Positions 2,135 through 60,107 of a stretch of DNA of 64,000 bases are shown piece by piece. Below the pieces are notes generated by a model. That model ran no database searches. It was not told the DNA's origin and saw nothing but the letters and a program-made list of their open reading frames with translations. The stretch comes from Voacanga thouarsii (taxonomy: Eukaryota > Streptophyta > Magnoliopsida > Gentianales > Apocynaceae), in NCBI GenBank assembly GCA_026120185.1, contig JANUWF010002008.1, positions 1,093,501-1,157,500 of the forward strand, written 5' to 3'. Position numbers and translations under genes: made by a program. Positions within the stretch are counted from its first letter, which is position 1, and each line of letters opens with the position of its first letter.

Positions 2135-3944
2135 TGTTGGGAAATATGCCCCGCTAGACTAGGTTTCTGATGTAAATATCGAATGTTTTATTAAAAAAAA
2201 TTTATTTTCAGAAATTGTTTATAAATTTACATTTTTATTTGTGTACAATTACGTTTGAAAAAGACCTATTGTATTTAAGTAAGTGGTTTATGTAAATGGT
2301 GGTCTTTCACAGTAAGGTATGGATCACGGGTTACTTAACATATAAACGTTTGTTCTTAACCAATTGATGATGATGGGAATTTCATCATGTCTAGGTTATT
2401 ATGTTATGAATTCTAAATAGGGAATGGCTTACCTTTAGCCAGTTAGTAGTCAACTCACTTCATGACATAAGCGTATTTCGAATACGTAAGACAGGACCTG
2501 CAGTAGTGGTTTTGTAAAGTACTATATAATAAAAACCTAGACTACTATTGCTACAGCGTGGACTAGTACTCTACGACTTGAGTATGAGTTAGTAGTCTGA
2601 CGAAACTCGAAGCATGTACTTTGATATGCCATAGTTGAGGTTCTATCGTATGGCCAATATACTTACATGTTGGGTATGTGTGACTAGTTAGTTAAGACAG
2701 ACTTGTACAAGATAGTTTCTATACTATATCGCCCCTTGTGGTTGTCTAAATGATCTAAATATTCAGGGTCCTGGGAAATGTGACTTGGATGTTTGCTTTA
2801 GGGTAGCTCCATTGAAAAATGGAAATAATCTAGGAAGTCATGGATCATTGGACTAGAAGCCTAAGGATGGTACATATCATTTAGAGAGGTATTAATATAT
2901 TTCTTCCTCTCTAATGTACGACGATATATAGAGGGGTATTTTAGTCATTTTACCTGTAGGTCGGAGACTTTGCTAACGCAACATTATCCTTGGAGTTAAT
3001 ATTTCTTTATGTTGATATTAGAAAATATTTAAAATATAAAATACAGCTATTTATATGGTAAGGGTATTTTGGTCATTTTAGTAGCTAAAGCGGTGTGACT
3101 TTTGGTCCCCAGTATAGACCGTAAGTCCTAATTATATATAGGCTAAGGAATTAGTTTTAAATTAAATTAAATTAAATTTATTTTTTTAAGTAGTCTGATT
3201 TAATTATTGGATTAGAATAAAATAAAGGTACATGGAGAGAGAAAATTAATTAAATTAGTTTGGTGGGTTAATTAATTTTTCAGGGCTTTGGCCCAGTTTG
3301 AATAATTAAAGATTGACCTGGGACTAAACTAATATAGGCTTGTTAATTAGACTAGTTTATTTGGGCTGAAAAATTAATTATTTATTAGGCCATTTATTTG
3401 GTTCTAAATAGAATAATTAATTTAATCCAAAAGGCTAAACTAAAAGTCCAATGGGCCAATTCAGTTTAACCTAGGGTTTTATTTAAGTTAAATAGGAGAA
3501 CAAAGACAGGGGATTGTTTTACAATATTGTTTTCACTACTTCTTCTCTGGTGAAAAAGAAAAACCGTGGTAGCCCCTCTTCTCTCTCGAAAATATTCTTT
3601 AGCCCTGTGAGTTGTTCACCAAATGGGATTAGGCAGGCCATATACTGGAAAACCAAGAGGTTGGCGTTCATATACATGTACAGACGGAGTAGGAGGCTTG
3701 CAAGAATCGCATCAGAGATTTCCACTAGCGCACCTACCCTAGTTCCATACATTCCAATCCAGCCGATTCTAAGAACAAAAAAAGGAGGTAAAAAATTTTT
3801 CGCCTCGGAGTCCTGCCAGACCGTGACCGGTGCCGATTGAGGCCTTCGGAACCGGCGTCGGCTCCGGTCTGCATTTTTCCTGTTCTTCAATTTTTCAATT
3901 TTTTGCTTCCGCTGCATGCTTTGCTTCCCCCTTTAAACCCTTCA
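2135..3944 (+). mobile_element. Copia-type solo LTR, TSD GGTCT
   Basis: An 1810-bp insertion starting TGTTGGGAAATATGCCC and ending CCCTTCA, flanked on both sides by GGTCT (2130-2134 and 3945-3949). The start is typical of plant Ty1/copia LTRs. No internal element domains are present, so it is a solo LTR left by LTR-LTR recombination. It includes a TTAAA microsatellite near 3155-3180 and a paired GGCGCC-type module at 3826-3862. Overlapping ORFs on both strands at 3514-3917 show no protein similarity that I recognise. Confidence 0.93.
3826..3862. repeat. Paired GGCGCC-type module (copia solo LTR)
   Basis: Cores GGTGCC (3829) and GGCGTC (3854) lie 25 bp apart. The spacer contains CCTTCGGA, as in the Athila LTR module at 12785-12821, although the two LTRs are otherwise unrelated. 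Confidence 0.75.
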
Positions 3945-4655
3945 GGTCTTATGTCCATAGCTTGGTACCACCATATGGTGCAGAATTCGTCCAACTCCAT
4001 TAAGCCACTTCGTGCTTTTGTCTCCAGAGTTTCCAAAGTTCTTCCCGCTAGTGAAGATTTTCTCAAAAAATTTCAGAACAAAAATATCATTTCCTTTAGG
4101 AAATTTATTCAACTCAAAGTACTGAATCCCAGCATCCATCACATCATATATCCTATTTAACAGTCGATGATCAAACTCAATGTCTGTACCTTTCACCCTC
4201 GACACATACTAACGAATCATGAATCCACCCTCAGTTTCTTCAAGTCTGTCTTTTCTTAAATTAGCATAAAATTCCCAGACAAGAGGAGTGAAGAATTTTT
4301 CATCAACAGACAGTAAACTACCCCATCCTATGCGATCAAACATATCCAGAACATTTGACAGATTTAGAAAAGCCGAAGGATTAGCACGGTAACCAGAGAT
4401 AACCGTCCTGTTCCTTGACACCCAATCATTATAATCAGTTTTGCATTTAGAGTAAATGAAGCAAGGTATCTGATTTTTAGAACTCATTTGTTCCAGAGAC
4501 GACTCAGAGGAATCGTAGTGAGATGCCGAGAAGTCCGGTTGAGGAGAAAGTTCTTTCTCTTTTGCCTTTCTTGAAACCGAACTCTTTTTCTTTATCTTCG
4601 GAGATGTTTTGTGTCCCTTCTTTAGTTTTGGAGCAGAAGATTTTGTCTTTGCCAT

Positions 4656-5091
4656 CAGTAAGATTAGGGCCTTTTTTTTTTGGACTGTCGGTTTTTGAAG
4701 AAGAAGAACACAAATAATTTTTGGAAAAGATGGTTACAAGGGTTTTGAGAGAAAAATTCGAGTACTTTGAATGTCTTTGAGTAATGTGAAATAAAGTGCA
4801 TTGAAAAGATAAGTTTTTCACAGAAGTTTAGAAGGACGCGCAAACTAATTTTTTTGAAATTCAAAATTTGGAATAAGGAAAGATATTAAAGAATGTTTTG
4901 GAACTTGACCCAATCCGAAATTATCATCCAAAATAGTGTTTTCCTGAGATGCATTTTGGATGTGAGATTTGGATTCAAATACTGTGTCCAAATCAGATGT
5001 TGGTACGTTTTGGATGCAAAACACTATTTCCAAAACCTTTTTCTTCACAGATCCTGCATAAAGAAGACTTATGCCAAATGGTTAGTTATCA
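4656..5091 (-). other. Spacer between pol and env-like gene
   Basis: No coding sequence recognised. The part 4890-5035 has seven TTTGGA/TCCAAA-type motifs, resembling clusters in the element's LTR and 3' noncoding region. It may carry promoter or splice signals for the third gene, but nothing definite is visible. Confidence 0.5.
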
Positions 5092-6550
5092 GATTCTTGT
5101 AATTCCCAAACCTCTTCTCAGATTGTTGAATCTTTCCTCAACTAGAGGTTTAGTGAAGATATCTGCAAGTTGTTCATCCATTGAAATATATTCAACACAC
5201 ACATCACTTTTGAGCAAATGATCTCGAATGAAATGATGTTTAACTTCTATATGCTTTGTCCTAGATTGTTGAATAGGATTTTTTTGTCAGATTGATAGCA
5301 CTTGTATTATCACACAATATGTGTACGCAATTGAAATTAAGATTAAAATCTAGCAATGTATTCTTCATCCACAAAATTTGAGCACAACAACTCCCGGCTG
5401 TAATTTATTCAGCCTCAATGGTGGATAAGGATACACATGCCTACTTTTTACTATGCCATGACACAAGAGAGTGTCCAAGAAATTGATAATGGCCACTAGT
5501 ACTTTTTCTTTCAACTTTACAACCTGCATAATCTGCATTAATGTATCTTATAAGATCAAATGTGTTAGTGTGAGGATACCATAATCTATAATCATATGTG
5601 CCAATTAGATATTGGAGTATATGTTTTACTGCACACAGATGTGATTCCTTTGGACTAGATTGAAAACGAGCACAAAGACATACCGAAAACATAATGTCTG
5701 GTTGGCTAGTAGTAAGATAGAGTAGACTTCTAATCATACCTCTATACTTATGTTCATCTACTTTCTTACCCTTTTCATCTTGATCAAGTTTTATAAAAGT
5801 ACTTATAGGTGTGCTAATTTCTTTTCCTTCATTCATTCCAAACCTTTTGAGTAACTCCTTGACATACTTAGCTTAATTTATAAAGATCCTATCCTTAGTT
5901 TGCTTAATTTGCAATCTAAGGAAGAAGTTTAGTTCTTCCATCATACTTATTTCGAATTCTTGCTGTATAGTTTTAGCAAACATCTTGTACAAAGAGTCGT
6001 TAGTAGCACCAAAAATGATATTATTAACATAGATTTGAACAATTAGTAAATCACCAAAATTATCGGATTTGATGAACAAGGTATTATCAATCAAGCCTCT
6101 AGAAAAACCTTTTGAAATCAAGAATCTACTAAGTCTTTTATACCAAGCTCTTGGAGCTTACTTTAATCCATAAAGAGCTTTTAAAAGTTTAAAAACGTGA
6201 TTTAGAAAGAGCTCATGAATAAAACCAGGAGGTTACTTAACATATATTTCCTCCCCAATAAAACCATTTAGAAATGCACTCTTAACATCCATTTGGTAGA
6301 GTATAAAATTTTTGAAGGATGCAAATGCAAACAGCATCCGTATGGATTCTAGTCTAGTAACAGGAGCGAATGTCTCATCATAATCAATACCTTCTTCTTG
6401 ATTTAAATCCTTGGGTGACTAATTTAGCTTCATTTCTAATCACAGCCCCATTTTCATCAAGTTTATTTCTAAACACCCATTTTGTACCAATAACAGGACA
6501 ATTAAGAGGTCTAGAAACAAGTTTCAAAACTTGATTTCTTTCAAATTGAT
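5092..6550 (-). pseudogene. Copia reverse transcriptase and RNase H (Sirevirus-like)
   Basis: The fingers region is heavily broken (6130-6550, many stops; fragments such as GTKWVFRNKLDENG remain). The palm segment at 5873-6121 has YVNN where copia RTs have the catalytic YVDD: both Asp codons are now Asn (GAT to AAT). RNase H follows at 5092-5836, with KSTSGHYQFLGHSLVSWHSKK-type motifs, a TAG in place of the usual Gln after SKK, LSTIEAEYI, and the terminal DIFTKPL motif near 5140. The first Asp of the RNase H DAD motif is also Asn (INADYAGC). This enzyme would have copied the RNA to DNA; this copy cannot. Confidence 0.88.
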
Positions 6551-7480
6551 TTAATTCTTCTTACATAGCAATAATCTAAAATTCATCATGCAATACAATA
6601 TCGATATAGCTAGGTTCAATATATGAAAGAAGAGCAAATTTGTCAATGAAATACCATCTAGTTTTAACTCCATAATTTGGATCCCCAATAATTTGTTCTT
6701 TTGGATGACCTGTTTTGTATTTCCAGTCTTTTGGCAATTGTCGATTTGTAGAATCTTTAGTTTGTTCTTTTCCTTGTTCAGCTTGTAACTCTTCAATTTC
6801 TTCTTCTTTTACATGAGTATCTAGCAGTGGAGCTTTGAGTTGCTCTAACTTGACTTCCTTTAAACTTCCTACATCATCGTCATCTCTTTTTGAAGCATAA
6901 ATGTTAGATTCATCAAACACAACATGCACGGATTCTTCCACACAAAAAGTTCTTTTGTTGTATACTCTATATGCCTTTTTGTTGGAAAAGTAACCAAGAA
7001 ATATGGCCTCATCGTACTTGCTATCAAATTTTTCAAGATTATCTCGGGTATTTAGGATAAAACATTTATATCCAAATACTTTAAAATAAGAGATAGATGG
7101 AGTTTTGTCAAACATAAATTCAAACGGAGTTTTTCTCAGAAACGGTCGTAGCATAACTCGGTTTATTATATGGCAAGCTGTATTAACAGCTTCCGTCCAA
7201 AAATATTTTGGAAGGATATTTTCATAAAGCATTGATCTAGCCATTTCTTGCAAAGTGCAATTTTTCCTTTCAACAACACCATTTTGTTGAGGGGTTTTTG
7301 TTGTTGAAAAATTGTGAAAGACTCCATTTTCATTATAAAAGTGAGTAAATTCACTGTTGCATAATTCTTTGCCATTATCACTTCTAATAGAAATTAGTTT
7401 GCATCTAATCGAGTTTTGGACGTGTTTAATAGTTTCAAAAATTCAGAAAAGGCTTCATTCGTTTGTCCAACAAAAAAAGT
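6551..7480 (-). pseudogene. Copia integrase, core and C-terminal part
   Basis: The DDE core second Asp (RSDNGKE, near 7375) and the Glu (VVERKN, near 7265) are recognisable, but the frame changes around 7170-7380. Downstream in frame (7253-6576) is the conserved copia C-terminal region: NTACHIINRVMLRP, then LEKFDSKYDEAIFLGYF and the VHVVFDES end. Integrase inserts the DNA copy into the chromosome. The N-terminal part lies at 7481-8185. Confidence 0.88.
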
Positions 7481-8185
7481 CTAAGTAAATCTAGAAAAAT
7501 CATCAACAAGTACATATGCATATTTCTTACCTCCAAGACTAGCAGTCCTCATAGGTCCAAATAAATCCATATGAATTAATTTGAGTGATTTTGAGGTACA
7601 AACCATTTTCTTTGGTTTAAAAGAGGTTTTGATTTGTTTCCCAAACTGACATACATCACAAATTTTGTATTTATCAAATTTCATTTTTGGCAGTCCCCTA
7701 ACAAGTTCTTTTGAAGACAATTTATTTAACAAATCAAAAGATACATGGCCTAATCTTCTATGCAAAAAATAACCATCGTTGTCATGTACGGATAGGCATC
7801 TAATACCATTAGCTACAAGGTTATTTAGATAAAACACATATACATTTCCCATACATTTGGCAATAAAGATTGTTTCAAGATTTGCACTGTCAAGTATAGA
7901 ACAAGAATCCTTTTCAAAGCTGACTTTGCAACCATTGTCACAAAGTTGGCTAATGCTAAGCAAGTTATATTTCAAATCATCAATAAGTAAAACTTGTTTT
8001 ATAATTGTTAAGAAACCTTTACCAATATTACCAATGCTGAGAATCTTTCCTTTCTTCTTGTCTCCAAATGTAACAAATCCTTCATTTGTGGTCTGAATAT
8101 CCTTTAACAAAGTTGCATTTCTAGTCATGTGTCTTGAACAATCGCTGTCCAAGAAACACTTGGTGAAGCTCAAAGACTGTGCCTA
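7481..8185 (-). pseudogene. Copia protease, GAG-pre-integrase and start of integrase
   Basis: An open stretch of about 230 codons. The aspartic protease signature reads LDSDCSRHMTR near 8115-8160, where the family has D-S-G and a final Gly; the Gly-to-Asp change alone should kill it. The integrase zinc finger is intact (HRRLGH, then CDVC near 7650-7760), followed by the first catalytic Asp in LIHMDLFGP near 7575. It ends FSRFT then TAG where the family has Trp, a TGG to TAG change. Confidence 0.88.
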
Positions 8186-11656: not shown

Positions 11657-12040
11657 TGATGTGTTCAGATTTGGGCATAAAAATCATACAAAAACTAAGC
11701 ACATGCCTAATCAAGTTTAAATTAAAATGTTGGACCTAAATCACACATATGAGCAAGCGTACTCATCATTACTGAGCATAGGGTTCAAACGAGTGTCGAT
11801 CCTCAAGGAACAAATAAACATTAATTACCCCTCTTTCATTGTTTAACCGACTCAACAAAGTGAAAATCAAATAAAAAGGAAAACTAAAAAGAAAATAAAA
11901 TAAAAATATGTGCATATTAAGGATGGAGAAGTATGCAACTCCAACCATTGATTAGACAACCATGATCTTCAAAAACTTAACCATTATCATAATCAATCAT
12001 TCTCTCGGCACCATGAAAGATTAAGGTAAATTAGCATCAC

Positions 12041-12325
12041 TTGGTCTGTCTCAACTAATTACTACCTTCTAGATAAATTAGCATCACTTGGTCTGTCTCA
12101 ATTAATTCATCCAAAAGATGCATTAAACACAATCCTTAATTAAGTTTACGTGGTCTGGCAAATTTAAAATATGAAATTAATCAATGAATCATTGGTCTGG
12201 AAAATATCAATTAACCTTTAATTATTCAATCCTCAGCAATTAACTTCTTTGGTCTAGTAAGTTAACAGCCAATGAATGCGAAAATTAATCAATTGCAACC
12301 ATCATCAACCTCTTTGGTCTAGCAA
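12041..12325. repeat. TTGGTCT motif array in Athila LTR
   Basis: GGTCT-containing words occur six times (about 12043, 12090, 12152, 12193, 12251, 12316), several as GGTCTAGCAAGTTAA or close variants. Most copies recur in the right-hand LTR (33740-33990) and, inverted, in the solo LTR at 56820-57060. Confidence 0.7.
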
Positions 12326-12784
12326 GTTAACAATAGAAACAACCAACTAATCTCGGAATATGCCCAAGTAATTAAATACCAAGAAGAACAGTCAATTAAT
12401 CAAAAAATCAAATAACTCCAAAAATCATGATTATCTAAAACAATGTCAAATTACAATAGAACAATTAAAACATCATTGTCAAGAAAAAGAAAACAAAGTA
12501 AAAGAAAGAACTCATAGACAAGCCTTCTTCTTCTTCATTCGAAAACCTTCTTGTACAACCCTCCTTGAACTTAAAGAATTCCTCCTTAGACTGAGTGATT
12601 TTCTATAATAATCAATGAATTCTCCCATTTTTCCTTGTAATTTTCATCTATTTATAGGCTTAAGAAGTGCCTAAACTCGTAGGTACAAAGTTCTTGGCCG
12701 AGTAGAAGTTGGAAGGTGCTAAAACTCTCCAGATTTCCAAAAACGCATTAAAAGATTGTAGCACCGCCTCAGGAACAGACCATA

Positions 12785-12821
12785 GCCGGCGCCGCCTTGG
12801 TCCTTCGGAGCCGGCGCCGCC
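12785..12821. repeat. Paired GGCGCC-type module
   Basis: Two perfect CCGGCGCCGC cores (GGCGCC at 12788 and 12813), 25 bp apart, with CCTTCGGA in the spacer. The partner in the other LTR (34445) has both cores decayed by one CpG change each. Confidence 0.9.
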
Positions 12822-12888
12822 TGTGTTCTGTTTCTCCACTCGTTTGCCGATTTTTTCTCCGAATTTTGCGAATACGTTCCAGACTGTA

Positions 12889-12924
12889 GCCGGCGCCGCC
12901 TCCAGCCTTACAGTCGGCGCCGGT
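12889..12924. repeat. Paired GGCGCC-type module
   Basis: Perfect GGCGCC cores at 12892 and 12916, 24 bp apart. Spacer GCCTCCAGCCTTACAGTC is close to the spacers at 32697 and 34660. Confidence 0.9.
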
Positions 12925-12990
12925 TAGGCTCTGTTCTACTCTGCTTCTCCAATTTTTCCATCGCTTTGAATTCCATGCATCCAGTGGACA

Positions 12991-13002
12991 GCCAGTGCCG
13001 CC
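12991..13002. repeat. Single remaining half of a GGCGCC-type module
   Basis: One decayed core (AGTGCC, 12994). The other LTR has a full pair at the same place (34651-34686); one core plus spacer is missing here. Confidence 0.7.
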
Positions 13003-13180
13003 TCTGCTCTGTTTCGCGATAGTTTTGCTTCGTTTTATCCAAAAACCTGAAATAATGACCAAAATACCTTTCCAATGGTAAAATCTCAAATATAAAAGAA
13101 TATGACTAGTTATTGCCCAAAATGTATTACAAAAGAGTCTCAAATAAGTACGCAAAATATAATCAAATTAGCCTCTATCA

Positions 13181-32760: not shown

Positions 32761-32796
32761 TCCGGCACCGGTTCTCTTCTTCCAGACGGCACCAAC
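32761..32796. repeat. Second paired GGCGCC-type module in Athila gag
   Basis: Cores GGCACC at 32764 and 32788, 24 bp apart, spacer GGTTCTCTTCTTCCAGAC. In the gag frame it encodes CRLEEENRCR. Confidence 0.85.
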
Positions 32797-33339
32797 CCTT
32801 ATCTGTTGTACTATCTGGCAATTCTTTTCCACTTCGCAATGTGATAGCAGATGCTTCCATACTGGCTAATGGTGTGAATTCATGAGATTTTATTACCATA
32901 TCCATCAAAAACCAAATTTGTTGTTCCATGTTGCGGATCTTTGCTTCAAATTTTTCGAAGGTGGAATCAATTTCTTGGAAACGCTTCGTGACATGCCCTA
33001 CGAATTTACCAACTAAGGTTTCAAGCTCTATTGATTCTGGCGCTGTGAGTGTTCCCTCCGAGGCATAATGGAAGTGATGCTCCCTGTTGGACCTTCTTAG
33101 ATCCCAATTCACCATGTCTCCTAAATAAGGAGATAAGTTAGATAGGAGAATTACAAAAATACACAGTTAGTTTAAAAGACGTAGTTCAAGTTGGTTAGGT
33201 TAGTTTGGTTATAAGGTCATACAAGAATACACGAAATACAAAAGATAGCACCGTTTTGCAGCAAGAACAAACATACATATTTACATATTTACATATTTAC
33301 ATGGTTAAATCAACAAAGTCTAGGCTTTTATGCTATTGT

Positions 33340-34444: not shown

Positions 34445-34481
34445 GCCGGTGCCGCCTTGGTCCTTCGAAGCCGGCACCGCC
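34445..34481. repeat. Paired GGCGCC-type module
   Basis: Cores GGTGCC (34448) and GGCACC (34473), 25 bp apart; allelic to 12785-12821, each core having lost one CpG. Confidence 0.9.
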
Positions 34482-34548
34482 TGTGTTCTATTTCTCCACT
34501 CATTTGCCAATTTTTTCTCCGAATTTTGCGCATACGTTCCAGACTGCA

Positions 34549-34584
34549 ACCGGCGCCGCCTCCAGCCTTACAGCCGGCGCTAGT
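34549..34584. repeat. Paired GGCGCC-type module
   Basis: Cores GGCGCC (34552) and GGCGCT (34576), 24 bp apart; allelic to 12889-12924. Confidence 0.9.
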
Positions 34585-34650
34585 TAGGCTCTGTTCTACT
34601 CTGCTTCTCTAATTTTTCCATTGCTTTGAAGTCCGTGCATCCAGTGTACA

Positions 34651-34686
34651 GTCGGCGCCGGTTCTAGGCTTCCAGCTGGCGCCGCC
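34651..34686. repeat. Paired GGCGCC-type module
   Basis: Perfect cores at 34654 and 34678, 24 bp apart, spacer GGTTCTAGGCTTCCAGCT. The left LTR keeps only one half of this module. Confidence 0.9.
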
Positions 34687-34869
34687 TCTGCTCTGTTTCG
34701 TGACGGTTTTGCTTCGTTTTACCCAAAAATCTGAAATAATGACCAAAATACCTTTCCAAGGGTAAAATATCAAATATGAAAGAATATGACTAGTTATTGC
34801 CCAAAATGTATTACAAAAGAGCCTCAAATAACTACGCAAAATATAACCAAATTAGCCCCTATCATCTTC

Positions 34870-44643: not shown

Positions 44644-46369
44644 TGTTAGTGTTGTGCCCTAGAGGCAATCACTTGTACATTATATTAATAGCTTTTTATT
44701 TTAATAAAAGACATTATTTATCTTACAGTTTCTTTTGTTTACTATAAGTAATATAACTGTTCGATAAAGTTCCTAGTGCAACACTGTGTTAAGGAAATCA
44801 TGATAGATATCATGATATGAGATTCCTACTACACTGGATGGTGTTAGTACTTAAATAGTCCATAGTCATAGTATTAATGAGATAGGACATCATTAATGCG
44901 TTAAGACTAGTATGTGTTAGACTTCTTGATTTGATCAGGCGGTAGTTCTCATAACCGTGAGTATTGAGATAATCAAAGTTAACACATGGATGCTTGTTAA
45001 TGGAACAAGTTCATTGGATGACCTAGCTTTGAGATAATCACATGGATAACTATTTAGTGCCAGTGATATAATCTCAATATAGCAAACGTACAAGTATCCT
45101 TAGACTTGAGATCTCCAAGGTACTTTGTTTGCTGAGCCTTGTACTTTGATTCCAATCTCTGGAGCTCGATCGAGGGCCGCCTATGGGATGGATATTGGGT
45201 ACATGGTGAGGTAAACGAAAATAGTTGAGAGGGTCAATAAAGGATTCACCATTCCTAATAGTAGGGGTGAATATCTCACGACCACTTGTAGGAATTACTA
45301 CTCGAAAGTCCTTGGCCAAGGCAATTGTGTATTGGAAACAGTTCCAATTGATACACATCTAGAGTAATGGGTTCCTGGTACAAGTACTATTGTATTCGAG
45401 CCAGAATTAATTCTAGAGGGAGTCGGCACTAATTCCGTACTCCAAACCGAATGAGATATTGTATGGTAAAAGGAGTTGATTGCATTAAAGTTTGTTATTG
45501 AAGGGTTCATGTCAAGCTACTTAACTTCCTGGACTCTTGGGTGGTCATGATGTGTTGCTAGATACCGCTCATGATCTGGGAATATGGGTTTATTAATTGA
45601 TGAATTAATAAACCAATCCTGATTAGAATTAATAGGATTAATTCTAATTAATTATAGATTATTAATCTCAAAGACGTTTGGATTAATTCATGTTCGCTAC
45701 CAATTGACTGGGAAACCTAATAGGTCACACACAGTAGAGGATTATATACTCAAGATGTTATTTGATAACATAGTGGGGTTGATTGCGAGAAAGAGAAGTT
45801 GTTGTGGACAAATTATAATTAGTTATAATTTATGGTCCAAATTATAATTATGAGAACTTAATGTGCCCAATTACAATTAGGGAATTCTAATGGGATTAGA
45901 ATCCCCTATTTTTTGGCAAGGGAATTTCATGTATATTGGAGAATATACACAAAAACCTCGAGCTGAAATTGGACACAAAAACCCTAGAGCAAGATACACG
46001 AAATCAGCCTCTTATTCTCTCTCTCTCGTTTTCTTCTTGAAAGAAAAACCTAGCCGCCATTTTTTTTTCTGCTAGCACAGAAATTTTGGTTCTTGAGTAT
46101 TCCTTTGTGTGGATTACTATTAGAGATAATCACACTCTGTGATTATAATGGGTAAACGTTCAACTCACGTGGAGGTTGATCACGAGGATTGCTGGATTGC
46201 ACCTCAACTTGAAGAAGAAATTTTTGTTCTTCGGACGATCACGCAAAGGTAAAAGTTGTTACCTTTACCGTCATTATGTCTTGTTTTCCACACATAGATG
46301 GGTCCTGGGATGGTATCTCGTTTTATTTTCTGCTGCGCCATACAGGATACGAGCCTGAGATACCCAACA
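44644..46369 (+). repeat. Copia 5' LTR
   Basis: 1726 bp from TGTTAGTGTTGTGCCC to GATACCCAACA, next to the primer site. Same length as its partner. Confidence 0.96.
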
Positions 46370-46370
46370 G

Positions 46371-46383
46371 TGGTATCAGAGCC
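46371..46383 (+). promoter_or_regulatory. Copia primer-binding site, initiator Met tRNA
   Basis: TGGTATCAGAGCC one base after the LTR end. Confidence 0.96.
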
Positions 46384-48167
46384 ATGCTATATGTGGTCTA
46401 CGGACATTGTTTTGGCATGAAAAATTGTTTTCATGTTTGTCTTTGTTTGCTGTGAAAATCATTTTCACTCGAGTCGAAATCGTTTCGATCTTTATGAGTT
46501 GGGTCCGTAGCACAATATGATTGTGTTATAGTCACCGAGTACTTCGAAAAGATGCTTTCTTTGGAGCTGAAAAATTTCTGCAGAAAATGTTTTCTTGCAA
46601 CATGGATGTTGCTCTCCATTTCATCTTAATTTTCCATTTTGATTTTGTTTAAACTAACAAATTGGTTGTTATTTATAGCTTCAAAACAGAAAATAGAGCT
46701 GAGAATTGTTCTTACTGAAAACTTGCAGAAGAAGAAAGCACTAGAAATTGTTTTTGCAATTTTTTTAAAAATCGCCGCCATTGTTGTATAACACAGGCGG
46801 CGCCGACTCTAGCCTCCAAGCCTGTGCCAATTCCATTCTATTCTCGATGTCCAAAAATCATTTTTGGAAGAAAAAAATTTTTGGAAACCAGAATAGCGCT
46901 GGTTCTACTCTATTTGCGACTTCCAGCTATTTAAAAAAAAAAATCGGAACTGAATTTTGAAAGGGTAAAACCTCATTTGATGAGAGACGAGAGCCGAAAG
47001 CATTTTCTCAAAATTAGTTTTGAGACAATCAATTTTGTTCTTCAAAATAATAATTTTGAAAATTTAAAATTGATGTATTATCTAAAATGGTGATTCTAGA
47101 ATTTGTTTTATTTTTCCAAAATAGTGATTTTGGAATAATAAAAGTATATGTTTATTTTGTTTAAGCATTGCCAATGGCATGGTGGATGGTTATGGACTAA
47201 AACCAATTATATCTGTTCATGCATTTTACAGTTTTGGATTTTATGAAATAGGACCTGCGTGTCCTGCCTTCTCTAGAATTCTTGTGTAATTCTCTTCTCA
47301 TCTAACTCCCCTCGAATGTAACTTGAGGTTTTCTCTCTTTAGGAAATTATGTAATTAGCTTACATAGGTTAGATATGAGTAGAATTATTTTATTCTGGAG
47401 ATGGCAACCAAAACAAGGCGAGGAGGTAAGACCTTCTACTTAAATTATGCATGAATACATAGGGTTAACTATATTAATTTCTTTTATGACTCAAAGAAAT
47501 TAATTTAGGATAAAGTCCATAACCATACCACGTAATCGCTTTATTACCATGATTATCAATTTTGTGATTATTGATTATTATGCATGTCATTCAACGAAAT
47601 CACTAAAAGGAACAAATCCCTCAATTAATATTAAACCTAATTCCTTCCGTTAATATAGTAAGAACGAGAGTCCTTTTTCAAGACCAAGTTGTTGGGCAAA
47701 CCTAAGCCTACTTGACATTGGGCATGTTCAAGCTATGGAATTAAATTCCTTTGGAATTAAATTCCTGATTAATGGATCGGGTTTAACTAAATTCTTTATC
47801 CCGATTGAGCAAACTCAAGCATAAAGAAATCTAGAGGAAAAGTTGGAGTAGCCCAAAAGGCTTTAAGATTAAAAGTTGTTAATCACCCAATGATCTGGTA
47901 GTTACATACGATGTAATTGGTATTGGATACCTACCAATGAACTCAAGGGTGGCTTGTTGGGCAAACCTAATGTTATTCTTGAGGAATTTGGATACCGGTC
48001 CACTAGAAAAGCTTCCAACGAGCTTTCCCGAATCAGTAGTGGGGGCTATTGGTTTGATTACAATAGTGGAGTAAAAATGCGTTTAATTAAAGTCCTAATT
48101 ATTTGCATATCATGTGTCTATACAAGTAGCTAATGCTCTCTATCTTTACATCTAGGTCACTTGCATC
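46384..48167 (+). other. Long 5' leader of the copia element
   Basis: About 1.8 kb without an ORF of note. It holds a paired GGCGCC-type module (46796-46831) and a repeated TTGTTGGGCAAACCTAA (47689, 47957). The length is unusual compared with typical copia leaders. Confidence 0.65.
46796..46831. repeat. Paired GGCGCC-type module in copia leader
   Basis: Cores GGCGCC (46799) and TGTGCC (46823), 24 bp apart. Spacer GACTCTAGCCTCCAAGCC is a near match to the Athila gag module spacer at 32697, and TTCCATT follows both. Confidence 0.85.
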
Positions 48168-48922
48168 ATGTCAACGAACTTGAACTTACGTAGCATTTTG
48201 GAAACTAACAAGTTAACCGAATCAAACTATCTCGACTGGTATAGAAATTTGAGAATCATTCTCAAATCGAAAAAGTTGCTCTACGTGCTAGATGCTCCTA
48301 TTCCACCACCACCAGCCCAAGATGCTCATACTAATGAGCATGCTATCCACAAGAGGCACAAGGAGAATAGCGATACAACATCATGTATTATGCTAGCATC
48401 CATGACTCCTGAGTTGTAAAAATAGCACGAGCATATGGATGCTCAATCTATCATTTTACATCTTCGAGAGTTGTTTGATGCCCAAGCCAGAATTGAGAGA
48501 TATGAGATCTCGAAGCAACTATTTCGTTGTAAAATGGCAAAGGGTTCTTCTGTGGCCACTCATGGGCTGAAGATGCTGGGCTTGATAGAGAAGCTTGGAT
48601 CTCTCGGGTTTACAATGGACCATGACTTAAGTGTTGACTTAATTCTTCAGTCTTTGCCTAATAGTTTCTCACAATTTGTGATTAACTATCAGATGAATAA
48701 GACTGAGTCCACTATCCCTGAGTTGATCAATCTTCTCAAAACTACGGAGTCCTCCATGAAGAGGGTTCTAATGCCGTTTTAATGGTAGAATCTTTCTCTT
48801 CTAAGAAGAAAGTTCAAAAGAAGGCTCCCATGAAGCCCAATGGTGGTGTGAACAAGAATGACGCAGCTGCCAAGGGCCCATGCCATCATTGTGGAAAGAT
48901 GGGCCACTAGAGGCACAACTGC
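48168..48922 (+). pseudogene. Copia gag
   Basis: ATG 48168 (MSTNLNLRSILETNKLT, then NYLDWYRNLRIIL), the UBN2-type gag. Two stops close together (near 48418 and 48424) replace Gln (CAA to TAA, CAG to TAG). A frameshift lies near 48770-48780. The zinc knuckle CHHCGKMGH-x-RHNC at about 48884-48922 has TAG for Trp and is cut at its last Cys codon by the solo LTR; the linker (AYLETIKDKKQKEK) resumes at 50373. Confidence 0.9.
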
Positions 48923-50367
48923 TGTTGGGGATATGCCCTAGAGTCAATTTGTACTTATACAATTGTCATTATGTATTATATAATAATATGAGGCTTTCCT
49001 TTCCATGAATAGTGAGTTTTGTTTTGTTGGTCATCAAGTACGTGACTTGATAGTAAAACCCTACAATGAATACAATGACTATTCTAAAGTCTGTCTCGAT
49101 CGATTATTATTATTGGAATAATAATAAATTAAGATTAGTATGTTTGTGACTTGATGGCTATGTTTTACTGGCCATGGATATTTGTGATATCGAGTCAAGA
49201 CATAAATAAATGTTAGACAACATTGTATTGGACATGACCCACTGTGAGAGTACTTCATGGAATATGTCATAAGTACTTTCTAGCCATAATAATATTGAAA
49301 GTCCTTCTACCTAAATTTATCATAGTTTCTTACTTGATAAATTCTATATTTTGACATTGTCTAAAGTTGTCTTTAACTAGATAATAAATTAGACTACTGT
49401 TGGATATAAAATAAATCAAGGAGAGGAATATGATTGATTGTGAAGGAATTTGTCCCTCTCAATTATGGGAGAGATATCCATGGGCCCCTTGATAAGTTAG
49501 ACTGTTAAAAATGCATGGCCGTGCTCAAATATATCAATCTAAGATATTGATATCATTTGTTTGAATAGTCTACTATGAAATCAAGAAATAATTGATTAAG
49601 CTTAATAAGGATGACATGCTCCGTGCCTTATGCTTAATCTGGATATCGTGTGACAAAGGGACTAAATATAAAATTATGGTTTGGTTCAAAGAGATCACCG
49701 ATCTTCATTTAACCTGGATAGTTATAATGTTTTGCTAGAAACCGCTTATAACTTGTGGGCCATTTAAATACGATTTAGGCACGCTGCCAGTGTTAAATGA
49801 ACCTATATGGTCACACAATAAGCGAACTTGTTAGGTTATTTTTCTGGTGACCAAGTTCGATGAATACGGATGATATCCAGATTATAAGAATCGACTCGGT
49901 AAAATAATTAGTTAAATTACCGAGATAATGGCGGAATCTTATCATATCAGTTTTAATTTAATTTGAATTTAAATTAGAATATGATAAGATATGATTAGGG
50001 TTGGACTCTAAGAGGTTCGAGGGTTTTTTTAAGAAAACCCTAGCCGTCTTTCGATAGTCCAATTTTTCGGTTGAGAACATTCGTGCCATTCTCTACCGAG
50101 AGAAAAAAACCTCGCAAACCCTAGGCGCTAGCACTCCCCGGGTATCGAGTGAGTTCGCGGTGTGTATCCGTAGAGGACGTTCGCATACTGCAAGATCTCG
50201 GTGATTGTTCGGTCGAACGTACAACAGTACGCAACCGTAATCGAAGGATTTCGATTACAGACAACCGGAGGTAACTCTTAAAGCTTAGATCTTCTTAATC
50301 GTTTACTTGGGTCCTCGGGAGGGATTCGTAGATGTTTTCCGCGTTTAGGAGTCCACGAATCCCAACA
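48923..50367 (+). mobile_element. Copia-type solo LTR, TSD ACTGC
   Basis: 1445 bp from TGTTGGGGATATGCCC to ACGAATCCCAACA, flanked by ACTGC (48918-48922 and 50368-50372). Perfect 6-bp inverted ends TGTTGG/CCAACA. It belongs to a different family from the host element, which has TGTTAGTGTTG ends. Confidence 0.95.
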
Positions 50368-50372
50368 ACTGC

Positions 50373-52714
50373 AAAGCCTACTTGGAGACCATCAAGGACA
50401 AGAAGCAGAAGGAGAAGCTTACAAGCACTTCTACTTCTTCTCCAGGTATGTTTATGATTGAGATAAATACTGCCTTTAGAATGAGATATGGGTATTAGAT
50501 ACCGGATGTGGATCTCATTTGTGCAATAACTTGCAGGGAGTAAAGAGCAGTAGAAGGCTAGAGAAAGGCGGCGTGGACCTACGTACTGCAAATGGGGCAA
50601 AGGTTGCTGCATTTGCTGTGGGGACATACGAGCTGAACCTGCCTTCGGGGTTGATTCTAGAACTGGAAAACTATTATTATGTACCAGTTTTAATGAAAAA
50701 TATTATCTCAATTGTGTGTTTATACTTATGTGGATTTCATTTAATATTTAAGAATAAATGTTGTTCTTTTTCATTAAATGATATTCATTATGGTTCAGCA
50801 ACTTTGGTTAATGATTTATATGTTCTAGACTTGGACAATCTAATTCTCAATATAAACAATAAGAAACCTAAAATAGATAACTCTAACACCTCTTACTTAT
50901 GGCATTATTGTTTGGGCCATGTAAACGAAAATCGTGTTTCTAAGTTACACAAGCTTGGTGACTTAGGGTCATTTGATTATGAATCATATGGCATATGCGA
51001 GTCTTGTTTACTAGGCAAAATGACTAAAACTCCTTTTCCAGGAAAAGGAGAATGGGCCAAGGAGTTATTAGAACTCATACATTCTGATGTATGTAGCTCA
51101 ATGTCAATACAAGCAAGAGGATGTTATAACTATTTCATAACATTTATCGATGATTTCTCACGATATGGGTATTTATATTTAATGAAATACAAATCTGAGG
51201 CCTTTGAAATGTTCAAAGACTTCAAGAATGAAATAGAGAAACAACTTGGTAAAAGTATTAAGACTCTAAGATCTGATCGAGGAGGAGAATATTTGAGTCA
51301 AGAGTTTCTGAGTTATCTTAAAGATAATGGGATATTATCTCAATGGACTCCACCACATACACCTCAACATAATGGTGTATCTGAGAGAAGGAATCGAACC
51401 CTTCTAGACATGGTATGGACCATGATGGCTTCTGTAGACCTACCAAAATCATTTTGGGGGCATGCACTAGAAACTTCTGTTTATATATTGAACAGAGTTC
51501 TGACAAAATCGGTTGATACTACCCCATTTGAGATGTTCTTTAGTAAAATACCAAAGTTATCTTACTTGCGAGTATAGAATTGTCCTGCCTTTGTTAAAAG
51601 GCCACAATCAGACAAACTTGATAGTAAGTCTGACAAGTGTTTGTTTGTGGGGAATCCAAAAGAATCTTTTGGATATTACTTCTATCAACCCTTCGAAAAC
51701 AAATTGTTTGTTTCGAAGCATGCCGTCTTCTTAGAGAAGGAGCACATGCTCAAGGGGGACAGTGGGAGTAAGATTGAACTTAGTGAAGTTCATGAAGATC
51801 AAACAAACGAGGATCAACCATCTAACCCCACATCTATTGAGAGAATAGATGAACCTTCTAATACACAAGAACCTCGTAGATCTAGTAGGATACGTATAGC
51901 ACCTGAGAGATATGGATTTCTCATTAGTGACCATAATGACGTATTGCTCATAGATGAAGATAAGCCTATTGCCTACAAGGATGTTCTGAATAGTTCAGAA
52001 TCTGACAAATGGCTTGAGGCTATGAAGTCAGAGTTGGATTCCATGTACGACAACCAAGTATGGACTTTGGTTGATCCACCCAAAGGAATTAAACCTATTG
52101 GGTGCAAGTGGGTTTTCAAGAAGAAAACGGACATGGATGGTAACTTAGTTACCTATAAAGCACTACTAGTGGTGAAGGGTTATCGTCAACAATATGGTAT
52201 TGACTATGATGAAACCTTCTCGCCAATAGCCATATTGAAATCCATCAGGATACTCCTAGCCATTGCTGCTCATTATGATTATGAGATTTGGCAAATGGAT
52301 GTGAAAACAGCTTTCCTAAATGAAAATCTGACTGAGGAAGTGTATATGACACAACCTGAGGATTTCATATCCAGTGATGGCATAAAGGTGTGTAAGCTGC
52401 AAAGGTCTATTTATGGACTTAAGCAAGCTTCTAGGAGTTGGAATATCCGTTTTGATGAACCAATCAAAGAGTTTGGTTTTATTCAAACTATGGATGAGCC
52501 TTGTGTATACAAAAAGGTTAGTGGCAGTGCAATCGTTTTCTTATTGCTTTATGTAGATGACATATTGCTAATAGAAAACGATATACCTGTCTTGCAAACG
52601 GTTAAAGTTTGGTTGTCCAAACAATTCTCCATGAAAGACTTTGGTGAAGCAACCTATATTCTTGGAATAAGGATCTATAGAGATAGATCCAAAAGGTTAC
52701 TTGGTCTTTCATAG
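50373..52714 (+). pseudogene. Copia protease, integrase and reverse transcriptase
   Basis: The protease keeps VLDTGCGSHLCNN (near 50490-50525) after a frameshift. From 50519 one frame runs to 52714 with a single stop at 51575-51577 (SYLRV then TAG; Trp expected). Integrase has the zinc finger (HYCLGH, CESC), and the DDE residues in IHSDVCSS, RSDRGGEY and VSERRNRT. RT has KWVFKKKTDMDGN, QMDVKTAFLNENL, IYGLKQASRSWN and an intact LLYVDDILL (52554). The stop at 52712 stands at a Gln (CAG to TAG). One of the best preserved polymerases of the window. Confidence 0.95.
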
Positions 52715-53534
52715 TCTACATACATAGATAAAGTGCTAAAGAGGTTTAGCAGGGATCAATCCAAAAAGGGATTCTTGCCCATGTCACATGGTGTAAGCCT
52801 TTCAAAGTTGATGTCTCCCAATACACAAATTGAAAGGGATCACATGAGTAAGATTCCATATGCCTCGGCAGTTGGATCTATCATGTATGCTATGATATGT
52901 ACTAGGCCCGATGTATCTTGTGCTCTCAGTTTGACGAGAAGATACCAATCCGACCCTGATGAGGGTCATTAGGTGGCTGTAAAGAACATCCTTAAGTACT
53001 TACAAAGACTAAAGACATGTTCTTAGTATATGGAGAAGGTGATTTGAAAATAAACGGGTATACTGATGCCAGTTTTCAATTTGATAAAGATGATTTCAAA
53101 TCACAATCCGACTACGTGTTAACGTTGTACGGAGAGGCAATAAGTTGGAAAAGTTCCAAACAAGTTACTATTGCTGACTCTATGTCAGAAGCTGAGTACA
53201 TAGCTACTTCTGAAGCAGCTAAGGAGGTTGTTTGGATCAAGAAGTTCGTGTCGGAACTAGGTGTGGTTCCTAGTGTTATTGGTCTAATAACTTTGTATTG
53301 TGACAACAACGGAGCCATTGCACAAGCAAAGGAGCCGCGGTCTCACCAACGATCCAAACACGTATTGCGACGTTATCATATGATCGGGAGATCATAGATA
53401 GGAATGATGTAAAAATAGAGAGAGTTCCCACGGATGAGAACATAGCTGACCCGTTTACGAAAGTACTATCCCAGAAGAAACATGATTGTCATGTTGAGTC
53501 ATTTGGTATTAGAAACATAAATAATTGGCTCTAG
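52715..53534 (+). pseudogene. Copia RNase H and pol C-terminus
   Basis: Continues in frame (YIDKVLKRFSRDQSKKG, YASAVGSIMYAMICTRPDV). A stop at 52970 replaces Trp (TGG to TAG). Frameshifts near 53005 and 53385. RNase H motifs: INGYTDASFQ, SMSEAEYIATSEAAKE, CDNNGAIAQAKEP. The end has ENIADPFTKVL and NNWL then TAG at 53532. RNase H removes template RNA during copying. Confidence 0.92.
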
Positions 53535-53548
53535 TGCAAGTGGAAGTT
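53534..53548 (+). promoter_or_regulatory. Copia polypurine tract
   Basis: GTGCAAGTGGAAGTT abuts the 3' LTR and overlaps the pol stop codon. Confidence 0.85.
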
Positions 53549-55274
53549 TGTTAGTGTTGTGCCCTAGAGGCAATCACTTGTACATTGTATATGATACTTT
53601 TTATTTTAATAAAAGGCATTATTTATCTTACAGTTTCTTTTGTTTACTTTAAGTAACATAACTGTTCGATAAAGTTCCTAGTGCAACACTGTGTTAAGGA
53701 AATCATGATAGATATCATGATATGAGATTCCTACTACACTGGATGGTGTTAGTACTTAAATAGTTCATAGTCATAGTATTAATGAGATAGAACATCATTA
53801 ATGCGTTAAGACTAGTATATATTAGACTTCCTGATTTGATCAGGCAGTGGTTCTTATAACCGTGAGTATTGAGATACTCAAAGTTAACACATGGATGCTT
53901 GTTAATGGAACAAGTTCATTGGATGACCTAGCTTTGAGATAATCACATGGATAACTATTTAGTGCCAGTGATATAATCTCAATATAGCAAACGTGCAAAT
54001 ATCCTTAGACTTGAGATTTCCAAGGTACTTTGTTTGTTGAGCCTTGTACATTAATTCCAATCTCTGGAGCTCAATCGAGGGCCGCCTATAGGATAGATAT
54101 TGGATACATGGTGAGGTAAATGAAAGTAGTTGAGAGGGTCAATAAAAGATTCACCATTCCTAATAGTAGGGGCGAATATCTCACGGCCACTTGTAGGAAT
54201 TACTACTTGAAAGTCCTTGGCCAAGGCAATTGTGTATTGGAAACAGTTCCAATTGATACACATCTAGAGTAGTGGGTTCCTAGTACAAGTACTATTGTAT
54301 TCGAGCCAGAATTAATTCTAGAGGGAGTCGGCACTAATTCCGTACTCCAAACCGAATGAGATATTGTATGGTGAAAGGAGTTGATTGCACTGAAGTTTGT
54401 TATTGAAGGGTTCATGTCAAGCCACTTGAATTCTTGGACTCTTGGGTGGTCATGATGTGTTGCTAAATACCGCTAATGATATGAGAATATGGGTTTATTA
54501 ATTGATGAATTAATAAACCAATCATGATTAGAATTAATAGGATTAATTCTAATTAATTATGGATTATTAATCTCAAAGAAGTTTGGATTAATTCATGTTC
54601 GCTACCAATTGACTGGGAAACCTAATAGGTCACACACAGTAGAGGATTATATACTCAAGATGTTATTTGATAACATAGTGGGGTTGATTGCGAGAAAGAG
54701 AAGTTGTTGTGGACAAATTATAATTAATTATAATTTATGGTCCAAATTATAATTATGAGAACTTGATGTTCCCAATTACAATTAGGAAATTCTAATGGGA
54801 TTAGAATCCCCGTTTTTTGTAAGGGAATTTCGTGTATATTGAAGAATATACACACGAAAGACCTGAGCTGAAATTGGACACAAAAACCCTAGAGCAAGAT
54901 ACACGAAATCAGCCTCTTATTCTCTCTCTCTCGTTTTCTTCTTGAAAGAAAACCCTAGCCACCATTTTTTTTTCTGCTAGCACAGAAATTTTGGTGCTTG
55001 AGTATTTCTCTGTGTGGATTACTATTAGAGACAATCACACTCTATGATTATAGTGGGTAGACGTTCAACTCACGTGGAGGTTGATCACGAGGATTGCTGG
55101 ATCGCGTCTCAACTTGAAGAAGAAAATTTTGTTCTTCGGACGATCACGCAAAGGTAAAAGCTGTTACCTTTACCCTCATTATGTCTTGTTTTCCACACAT
55201 AGATGGGTCTTGGGATGGTATCTTGTTTTATTTTCCGCTGCGCCGTATAAGATACGAGCCTGAGATACCCAACA
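53549..55274 (+). repeat. Copia 3' LTR
   Basis: 1726 bp, partner of 44644-46369; followed by TSD CCTTT. Confidence 0.96.
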
Positions 55275-55646: not shown

Positions 55647-57488
55647 TGATAGGGGTTAAAATAGTCATATATTTCCTAGTTATTTGATGCTAAATTAAGA
55701 CACTTTTTATACAATAATTAGTCATATTGCTTCATATTTGATATTTTCCTTAAAAAAATGCTTTTCTATAATTTTATGCGAAAATAAGTGAAATTTAAAA
55801 TTAATTGTATTATTTTCCAGCACAAGACCAGCACCAGCCTAGGAAGGGGAGTCGGTGCCGATCTTCCACTGGAAAAGAAAAGAACAAAGAAAAGCGTAGA
55901 GAATTGAATGAAACAGGGGAACAATTGAAATTGAAAGTCGGTGGCTTAGTTCATGGCTCACTTGAGCCGACCGCAAGAAGAAAGAATTGATTTTGGTAGG
56001 ACCTAGACAATGCAAAGCAAAGTCAACAATTACGGTAGCAGCATGAAAAAGGAAGCAGCTTGAGGATTTCGATTGGCTGGGTGGCTGAGCAAGAAGACAA
56101 AAGGAAGAAGAGGAAATCAACTGCAGCAATTCGGTGGCTTACTTGAGCCAACGAAACAAAAGGAATGTGTCTCAATTGAGCCGACACTACAGAGAGAAAG
56201 ATTTTCGGTGGCTTCAAGCAAATTTCGCATGGCTCAATTGGAAACCAAATCAAACAAATCCAATTTTACATCAATTGAAGTTCTCCAGCACAAAACGACA
56301 AAGTCAAAATTGAAGTCCAATTGATTTCCAATTTCAAAAGTCAAAGGCAGTGGATTCTTTTCCTTAGTTTTATTTAGTTTTTATTTAGACTTTTTATTAC
56401 TCCTTTTTGGTTTTGGATTATTTTTAGGTAATTACTTCTTCTTTACTGAGGATGCTTTTAGGAACTTTGTGAGCCTATAAATAAAGGCCAATTTACCCTA
56501 GGAAAGGAGGGTGCACAATGTAGAGACTTAGATATATTTTGGAGTGCATCACCAATATTTTCTCGAGAGAAATAAATTAAGGAGGATTGTGTAAGAGGGT
56601 CTACGAAGGAAGAAAAATGAGGCTTATCTATGAGTGCTTTCTTTTACTTTGTTTTCTTTTTCTTGAACAATGATGTATTAATTGTTTTATTATAATTTGA
56701 CATTGTTTTAAGTATTCATAATTTTTAGAGTTATTTAATCTTTTGATTAATTGATTGTTCTTCTTGGTATTTAATTTCTTATGCTTATTACGAGATTAAT
56801 TGGTTGTCTCTTTTCATTAACTTACTAGACCAAAGGGGTTGATGGTGGTTTCAATTTATTAATTTCATATTTGATTGGCGATTAACTTACTAGACCAAGG
56901 GGGTTAATTGTTGAGAACTGAGTAATTAATGGTTAATTGATGTCTGCTAGACTAAGGATTCATTGATTAATTTCATGCTTTAAATTTGCCAGACCAAGGA
57001 AATTTAATAAAGGACTGTGTTTAATGCGTCTGTTGGGTGAATTAGTTGAGACAGACTAAGTGATACTAATTTAGCTAGAGGATAGTGATTTCATGGATTG
57101 ACCAAAGAAGTGAATCTATCTTAATCCTTCATGATGCTAAGAGAATAATTAGTTAGGATAATGATTGAATACTTTAAGATCATGTTTGTAAAAACAATGG
57201 TTTAAATTACATAATTCTCCATCCTTAACATGTATATATTCTTTTACTTTCTTTTATTTTATTTTTCCTTTTATTTCTTTTTCACTTTATGGAGTCGGTT
57301 AAACAATGAAAGAAAAGTGATTAATGCATACTTGTTCTTGGAGGATTGACACTCGTTTGAACCCTATGCTCTGTTAATGATGAGAACGCTTGCTCATATG
57401 TATAATTTGGGATTAACGTTTTAATTTAAACTTGATTGGGAATGTTCTTATTTTTATATGATTTTTATACCCAAATCCAAACATATCA
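55647..57488 (+). mobile_element. Athila-type solo LTR, TSD GCTCT
   Basis: 1842 bp from TGATAGGGGTTAAAATAG to CCAAACATATCA, flanked by GCTCT (55642-55646 and 57489-57493). It is related to the inverted Athila LTRs at 11657-13180 and 33364-34864, including the TTGGTCT array (inverted) and the stretch with ACACTCGTTTGAACCCTATG. It carries a longer 5' half (56000-56500) with repeated TCAATTGAGCC-like words that the other copies lack. Confidence 0.93.
55827..55862. repeat. Paired GGCGCC-type module
   Basis: Cores AGCACC (55830) and GGTGCC (55854), 24 bp apart, in inverse orientation to the modules at 12889 and 32688; both cores have decayed CpGs. Confidence 0.75.
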
Positions 57489-58997: not shown

Positions 58998-59890
58998 GAA
59001 AGAACATGGGAATAATGCAAAGAAAAAGGAAAGGGGTCCTTCAAAGCCCATAAATCTTGCAGAAGGAAAAACTATTTTGGTTGCATTTAATGAACTTATG
59101 TAGCCAATTAGACCTACAAGACCAATCTTCATGACCTATCTTGGTAATGTTGCTCGTAACAGTATATGGCTACCCCTTACTTATGAGACATGGAGAGATA
59201 TTCCAGAAGATATATTAGATCGTGATTGGGTAGATATTCAAGTACATTACTAGTAGATAGAACTTTGGCTCATTTTATCTCAATTTTTTGTCATGGTTGT
59301 TATTCTATTAAACTAAGTATATTCTTAACTTTTTCTTCATTTGTCTCTCTTTTTTTTTTTTTTTTTTTTGAAATGAAGTCAAAGAGCATCGTCCCTCCTG
59401 CATATAGGATTAATTGCATGAAGTCACTTGATGAAAAATGGAGATCATGGAAAAGCCAGTTAAAGAAGAACCATTTTATCAACAAAACCAAAGAGGAGGC
59501 TTTAGCCACTGTTCCCTCAAGGGTTGAGCCTAAGCAGTGGAAAGTACTGGTTGATTATTAGAGTTTGGAGCGAGTGCAAGTACTAGTTCATTCCAAATCA
59601 AATCTTAATTGGATTTCTGTAGTTCTCCATTAATAAACTTCATTTTTTAGTCAAGATAGAATGTTTTTTATCTCAATTTATACTAATATGATGAAAATGA
59701 CTGTGAGTTATTGATAGAGACTAAATTAGTCATATTTTTCCTAGTTATTTGAGGCTATTTTGTGATACATTCTGTTCAATAACTAGTCATATTCCTTCAT
59801 ATTTGAGATTTTATCTTTGGAAAAGTATTTTGTTAATTATTTTAGATTTTAGGGGTAAAACAAAGCAAAAACATCGCAAAATAGAACATA

Positions 59891-59926
59891 AGCGGCGCCA
59901 GCCAGGGCAGAGGAACCGGCGCTGGC
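59891..59926. repeat. Paired GGCGCC-type module
   Basis: Cores GGCGCC (59894) and GGCGCT (59918), 24 bp apart. The spacer, read on the minus strand, is GGTTCCTCTGCCCTGGCT. Confidence 0.9.
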
Positions 59927-60071
59927 TACACATTGTTGACATGCATTTCAAGACGACAAAAAGTTGTTGAAATAGGACCGAAATAAAACCAAACCGACGA
60001 CGGCTGTATTCTGGACAACATTGTGCTAAAATCAAGGAAAAATCGATGAACAATGGAAGAAACAGAACACA

Positions 60072-60107
60072 ACCGGTGCTGGCTCCAGTAGCCAAGGCGG
60101 CGCCCGC
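60072..60107. repeat. Paired GGCGCC-type module
   Basis: Cores GGTGCT (60075) and GGCGCC (60099), 24 bp apart, spacer GGCTCCAGTAGCCAAGGC; orientation opposite to the module at 59891. Confidence 0.85.

Follow-up and report, generated by a model that had tools for sequence, protein, structure and literature searches.

The stretch of DNA analyzed here, referred to as the window, comprises 64,000 nucleotides of contig JANUWF010002008.1 from Voacanga thouarsii (Apocynaceae), and it carries several retrotransposons with long terminal repeats (LTRs): an element, here called A, which retains both of its LTRs, two further LTRs, B and C, which align with those of A, and elements of the copia type. Pfam places RVT_1, RT_RNaseH and rve domains between the LTRs of element A, from which A is read as a gypsy-type element; the name Athila, which we take to apply to A, B and C, is presumptive or adopted from an earlier note on the window, as are the labels Tekay-like and Sirevirus-like for elements in it. 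The earlier note had drawn attention to twelve sites in these elements at which two GGCGCC-type palindromic cores stand 24 or 25 bp apart, and it had proposed either a mobile or copied micro-module or a paired protein-binding site. In the present work the core pairs are found to lie within a larger inverted repeat of 54 or 55 bp, and its structure, its position in the LTRs and its copies elsewhere are described.

Paired cores and the dyad of the Athila-like LTRs

All twelve core pairs were found where the earlier note had placed them and with the spacing of 24 or 25 bp given for each (sites are denoted below by the start of their first core). When a pair is defined as two cores with at most one mismatch to GGCGCC that start 24 or 25 bp apart, the window contains 11 pairs, whereas 200 local dinucleotide shuffles yield 0.19 on average and never more than 2, and this comparison, which the earlier note had called for, places the pairing of the cores far above chance expectation. 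If only a single LTR of element A is included, 8 pairs are counted, 5 of them spaced at 24 bp and 3 at 25 bp. Nine of the 11 pairs are listed sites, and the other two (12791 and 46774) are GCCGCC words which overlap or adjoin listed sites; sites 46799, 55830 and 60075 are absent from the 11 because one core of each has two mismatches, and two exact GGCGCC cores are present at just 3 of the 12 sites. The cores had been described as lying usually inside CCGGCGCCGG, which proves to be a single occurrence in the window, while CGGCGCCG occurs 8 times.

Alignment of the 24 halves reveals that the feature around the pairs is a dyad: two half-sites in inverted orientation, each CAGA-N4-ARCCGGCGCCGRYT, which face each other across a spacer of 10-11 bp to give a total length of 54 or 55 bp, and which extend outward, beyond the cores described earlier, to inverted ends CAGA and TCTG. 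The letters C, A, G and A of CAGA are conserved in 19, 23, 19 and 17 of the 24 halves, the fifth core base (C) in all 24, and the final T in 22. Whole modules at 12788, 12892 and 34654 show 70-73% identity, and the module at 60063..60116 is 79% identical to that at 12788, with the opposite orientation in the window and the same orientation in the LTR. The occurrence of both orientations is expected because the LTRs lie on both strands and the module has dyad symmetry. No report of this module was found within the literature searches made; those with the motif letters, judged by title or abstract start, returned nothing on the motif in retrotransposons.

The LTRs and the modules in them are as follows. 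No strand is assigned to the modules, and "threefold" marks those placed by half-site alignment, profile and LTR alignment together.

33364..34864, minus strand: Athila-like element A, 5' LTR (90% identity between its two LTRs); outer TCTTC
34642..34695: module 1, 5' LTR of A (threefold)
34540..34593: module 2, 5' LTR of A (threefold)
34436..34490: module 3 (25-bp subtype), 5' LTR of A (threefold)
34308..34318, minus strand: TATA box CCTATAAATAG, 5' LTR of A; identical word at 12648-12658 in the 3' LTR
11657..13180, minus strand: 3' LTR of Athila-like element A; outer TCTTC
12982..13011: module 1, 3' LTR of A, with one core left after a 24-bp loss (alignment gap)
12880..12933: module 2, 3' LTR of A (threefold)
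12776..12830: module 3 (25-bp subtype), 3' LTR of A (threefold); best dyad score, 70.9
55647..57488, plus strand: Athila-like LTR B (LTR alignment)
55818..55871: decayed module of LTR B at the module 1 position (threefold); sole module found in B
59712..60193, plus strand: Athila-like LTR C, interrupted by a gypsy LTR inserted at 60194 (LTR alignment)
59882..59935: module 1, LTR C (threefold)
59992..60013: half of a module, at the place of module 2, LTR C (half-site score 21.3 at 59996; alignment)
60063..60116: module 3, LTR C (threefold)

Module 1 starts at base 170-172 in all four LTRs; modules 2 and 3 come after it in A, in C the second of these is reduced to a half, and in B module 1 was the only one found. 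Eight of the 12 sites thus occupy three homologous positions of the Athila-like LTRs, and most of the sites are therefore inherited. The earlier statement that the carriers have no other visible similarity fails for these eight because their LTR starts align (68-94% identity over the first 140 bp). In element A the array spans bases 170-429 of the 5' LTR and 170-405 of the 3' LTR, and both arrays stop 118 bp upstream of CCTATAAATAG; in LTR B a TATA word lies about 600 bp beyond the module. Each LTR of A has 5-6 boxes, and a gag-like open reading frame (ORF) of A, described below, has 4.

Judged by the observed/expected ratio alone, without an island-calling program, the arrays of A are rich in CpG (0.99 and 1.05; the remainder of those LTRs has 0.42 and 0.47), and the ratio is 1.02 in LTR C. 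The modules are also better conserved between A and C than the sequence that separates them, with identities of 68-72% for module 1 and 75-80% for module 3 compared with 41-60% for the inter-module stretches; the stretch beyond module 3 has 63% identity. The module of LTR B has been retained at the module 1 position beside an adjoining flank that is unrelated (36-41%). Differences between the 5' and 3' LTRs of A are transitions in 13 of 14 cases within the modules and in 26 of 34 cases elsewhere in the aligned part.

The collapsed module 1 at 12982..13011 retains half-site scores of 28.7 and 28.1 at 12994, and its 24-bp loss is the expected outcome of recombination between its own two cores. 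A tandem duplication of a whole 103-bp unit within the LTR was considered but could not be demonstrated, the best p value in six inter-module comparisons being 0.08. Nested inside element A is a second gypsy-type element with 4.3-kb LTRs and AGGAC on both sides; a third LTR of this nested family (about 80% identical) occupies 60194-63958 and starts within LTR C, 77 bp past a module. About 1 kb past element A, an AT-rich tandem array at 35928-37465, scored as approximately 10 copies of a 151-bp unit or alternatively as 5 copies of 305 bp, may be a satellite.

Modules in a gag-like reading frame and in copia elements

The remaining four sites lie outside the LTRs, in the following contexts.

32543..33166, minus strand: gag-like ORF of element A with two modules (open frame)
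32679..32732: module in the gag-like ORF (site 32691); spacer 9/10 identical to that of LTR module 1
32752..32805: weaker of the two gag-ORF modules (site 32764); score 23.9 against a shuffle maximum of 21.8
3519..8182, minus strand: copia pol remnant, then open pieces weakly matching Transposase_32; holds site 3829
3817..3871: module (25-bp subtype) 3' of the copia pol; flanks resemble an Athila-like U3
44644..55274, plus strand: structurally complete copia element whose leader holds a module; 95% identity between its LTRs, flanked on each side by CCTTT
46787..46840: module in the copia 5' leader (site 46799), placed by profile score and borderline for the non-core letters

The gag identity of the ORF at 32543..33166, which has no Pfam match, is presumptive. 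Its two modules stand in different codon phases, and it is therefore the DNA and not a peptide that is shared; an explanation of these sites at the level of the peptide is thereby ruled out. Site 3829 had been described as a copia solo LTR, and of this description the copia context stands while the solo LTR status could not be demonstrated: the site is found downstream of the 3' end of a copia pol, and the open frame that holds it adjoins two successive open pieces which match positions 2-31 and 37-108 of the Transposase_32 profile with E values of 0.0095 and 0.007, below the curated cut-off. No Transposase_32 match was found in the open piece that bears the module, nor in its part beyond the module. 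The open pieces at 3519-4733, with their weak Transposase_32 matches, are possibly an env-like gene. The leader of the copia element at 44644-55274 is about 1.8 kb long, and its primer site presumably resembles a methionine tRNA site.

In order to compare these sites with the LTR modules, a half-site profile trained solely on the Athila-like LTR sites was used. It scores the outside sites at 49.3 (3829), 44.6 (32691), 37.3 (46799) and 23.9 bits (32764), while the LTR sites score 44.6-70.9, so that the LTR range takes in 3829 and 32691, at or near its lower limit, and 46799 and 32764 fall below it. The best scores in 500 shuffles were 21.8 when spacings of 18-31 were allowed and 17.5 at spacings of 24 or 25, and all four outside sites exceed them. 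Of the earlier claim that a module is shared across unrelated families, the sharing is thus upheld.

The letters outside the cores bear on how the sharing arose. When each site is compared with six LTR modules, in either orientation, and the best match is taken, with p values uncorrected for the four sites, the spacer and N4 letters of 3829 match module 3, including its 25-bp spacing (p 0.005), and those of 32691 and 32764 match module 1 (p 0.003 and 0.004); the 9/10 spacer identity of 32691 was reached by none of 3000 shuffles. These comparisons, like those of the flanks, used 6 of the 8 LTR modules, 34448 and 34552 being excluded as near-duplicates of 12788 and 12892. The flanks of 3829 prolong its match to module 3 of LTR C, with a score of 38 compared with a maximum of 34 in 60 shuffles when the alignment is anchored at the module; unanchored tests are weak (p 0.035 and 0.13). 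Agreement in the spacer and N4 is not required if a protein alone selected the site, and the shared letters therefore favour copying at three of the four sites. Between the two proposals of the earlier note, a copied module and a paired binding site, copying is thus the better fit for these three. Judged from these letters, 3829 and the gag-ORF sites were probably copied from an LTR, and 46799 may, less surely, have the same origin.

Searches beyond the window were made in viral and prokaryote collections, and they say little because these collections hold no plants: no exact match to the dyad pattern was found in viral or prokaryote contigs (one pattern each), of 12 stretches in viral contigs that fitted reverse transcriptase patterns none was confirmed, and none of 49 candidate relatives of the gag-like ORF was retained at E 0.001.

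A candidate DNA site near the promoter and its rivals

The explanation proposed here, which we consider evenly balanced between right and wrong, is that the core pairs are the centre of a promoter-proximal cis-module of an Athila-like Ty3/gypsy lineage. Up to three modules in the upstream part of the LTR form a CpG-rich array shortly before the TATA box, and they would most likely act as DNA, bound by a sequence-specific protein which either promotes transcription or prevents silencing of the promoter. The copies in the gag-like ORF and 3' of the copia pol would be derived from the LTR modules through retrotransposon recombination, template switching or repair, and so, with less certainty, would that in the copia leader. 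The placement and conservation of the modules fit a DNA site near a promoter and are not proof of function; their structure, position, richness in CpG, recurrence above chance and common spacer letters are observed, and binding of a protein and regulation are inferred.

Whether the dyad acts as DNA or as an RNA hairpin can be approached through its arms, which in a conserved stem should be matched to each other. In the 10 of 12 modules that are non-redundant (34448 and 34552 were excluded), a small sample, the arms of a module pair with each other at 16.4 of 22 positions and with swapped arms at 16.1 (p 0.25; by part, p 0.90 for the core, 0.07 for N4 and 0.21 for CAGA), so that compensatory changes keeping a stem give no clear excess for own arms, and the lack of covariation therefore favours a DNA site. 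A hairpin active in the transcript, serving in packaging or dimerisation or as a source of small RNA, could draw on the fact that every location can presumably belong to a transcript, and on the excess of small RNA at palindrome clusters of maize Sireviruses mentioned in PMC10760457, which cites Bousios 2016. When ten strands, drawn from 8 modules out of 12, were folded, however, five had z scores above -2 and two, both strands of 3829, lay between -2 and -3, with the other three lower; together with swapped arms that pair as well as own arms, this makes a hairpin as the main function quite improbable. No Rfam match at gathering scores was found, nor any tRNA gene by ARAGORN (bacterial code).

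Several observations nevertheless count against a DNA-bound, copied cis-module. Three of the folded strands have z scores of -6.7, -4.1 and -3.1; LTR B has one decayed module, at which the CpG ratio is 0.40; and between A and C the flank of module 1 (79%) is conserved as well as the modules and the LTR start (83-86%) better than they are. With regard to copying, the p values for spacer and N4 are uncorrected, as stated above; the spacer of 32764 by itself is not significant (p 0.068); no relation to the LTR flanks could be detected for the flanks of 32691 and 32764 (p 0.22 and 0.15), and no homology to them was found for those of 46799 (p 0.70). The latter site is borderline also in its spacer and N4 (p 0.056) and in its spacer by itself (p 0.078), and its link to the LTR modules depends on the half-site profile. 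Finally, the proposed explanation rests on a single window of 64 kb.

It is rather unlikely that the shared site reflects convergence, in which one DNA-binding protein encoded by the host or an element (for example a VANC-like anti-silencing protein) selected the same pair independently. Such convergence would agree with half-sites that remain recognisable in LTRs B and C despite spacers unlike those of A, with the binding of VANC proteins to short motifs which accumulate as tandem repeats (PMC5735166), and with the nearly identical RM boxes that PMC2829016 reports for Sireviruses of very low sequence homology, but three of the four outside sites share non-core letters with a particular LTR module, and a binding site does not need these. 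Descent without function, that is, an old LTR segment of which fragments were taken into other elements, would account for the eight sites at three homologous LTR positions, and the preponderance of transitions among the differences between the LTRs of A resembles decay after insertion; the superior conservation of the modules over the inter-module stretches, and the module of LTR B that persists at its place beside an unrelated flank, speak against it, and it is judged unlikely. The suggestion of a mobile micro-element or fold-back that inserted independently is very improbable: the inverted ends CAGA and TCTG and the occurrence in an ORF, a leader and LTRs would suit it, yet no target duplication is visible by eye in the printed flanks, module 1 stands at one fixed place in four LTRs, the eight LTR sites are inherited, and 3829 was apparently copied together with its flanks.

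Comparison with known systems

The earlier view that no named feature resembles the module was too strong, since the palindromic RM boxes of Sireviruses are closely analogous in kind and position. According to Bousios et al. 2010 (PMC2829016), RMs are palindromic, have a CGG-CCG core, occupy the upper part of the LTR directly ahead of the TATA box, form CpG islands, recur upstream of env, and were termed Sirevirus-specific from a comparison among Ty1/copia elements. The present boxes are alike in being palindromic with a CGG-CCG core (CGGCGCCG, in 8 exact copies), in clustering upstream of the TATA box in the upper LTR (element A), and in CpG richness (in A and C, not in B). They differ in that they occur mainly in Athila-like Ty3/gypsy LTRs, A being read as gypsy type; in that they form inverted pairs with fixed spacing and outer CAGA arms; and in that a gag-like ORF and the leader of a copia element also hold copies. 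The longer perfect symmetry of the RM core is lacking here as well: CGG-CCG arms of at least 5 occur twice in the window, one of them in a module, while shuffles give a mean of 0.66 and a maximum of 3. RMs number at least 8 per element, commonly with more than 85% identity; element A has 5-6 boxes per LTR and 4 in its gag-like ORF, and the 70-73% identity given above is that of whole modules.

Sharing between superfamilies has other counterparts. A maize palindrome, CACCGGACNNNGTCCGGTG, is found in Copia elements and also in Helitrons (PMC10760457), and resembles the dyad as a GC-rich palindrome common to unrelated transposon superfamilies; its letters are different, and no pair with fixed spacing is reported in the text consulted. 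QuinCent of einkorn belongs to a gypsy LTR and has a homologous segment in the LTR of a copia family, and PMC11302176 proposes that the gypsy family acquired it; it too has cryptic inverted symmetry and is common to gypsy and copia, but it is about 162 bp long and tied to the placement of nucleosomes, in contrast to the 55-bp CpG-rich dyad. The maize palindrome and QuinCent are therefore precedents for sharing between superfamilies. The VANC motifs of VANDAL transposons (PMC5735166) are likewise short motifs multiplied in non-coding parts of transposons, but they belong to other transposons, have other letters (for example YAGTATTAY), and are bound by the VANC protein of the element itself.

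CpG-rich palindromic boxes upstream of the promoter have been documented for Sireviruses, where they are discussed as a site of conflict of the element with its host, and the paired dyad is a related design. Retrotransposon families may have obtained a regulatory switch from one another by copying, and it is possible, though doubtful, that a 55-bp promoter module has been transferred among gypsy elements of the Athila-like kind and two or more copia families, with one DNA-binding protein serving them all as a shared switch for control or anti-silencing. The 55-bp sequence offers a precise target for binding, methylation and reporter assays. If the paired design in Athila-like LTRs and its copia copies is borne out, it would suggest that this type of promoter design is more general, and able to spread between families.

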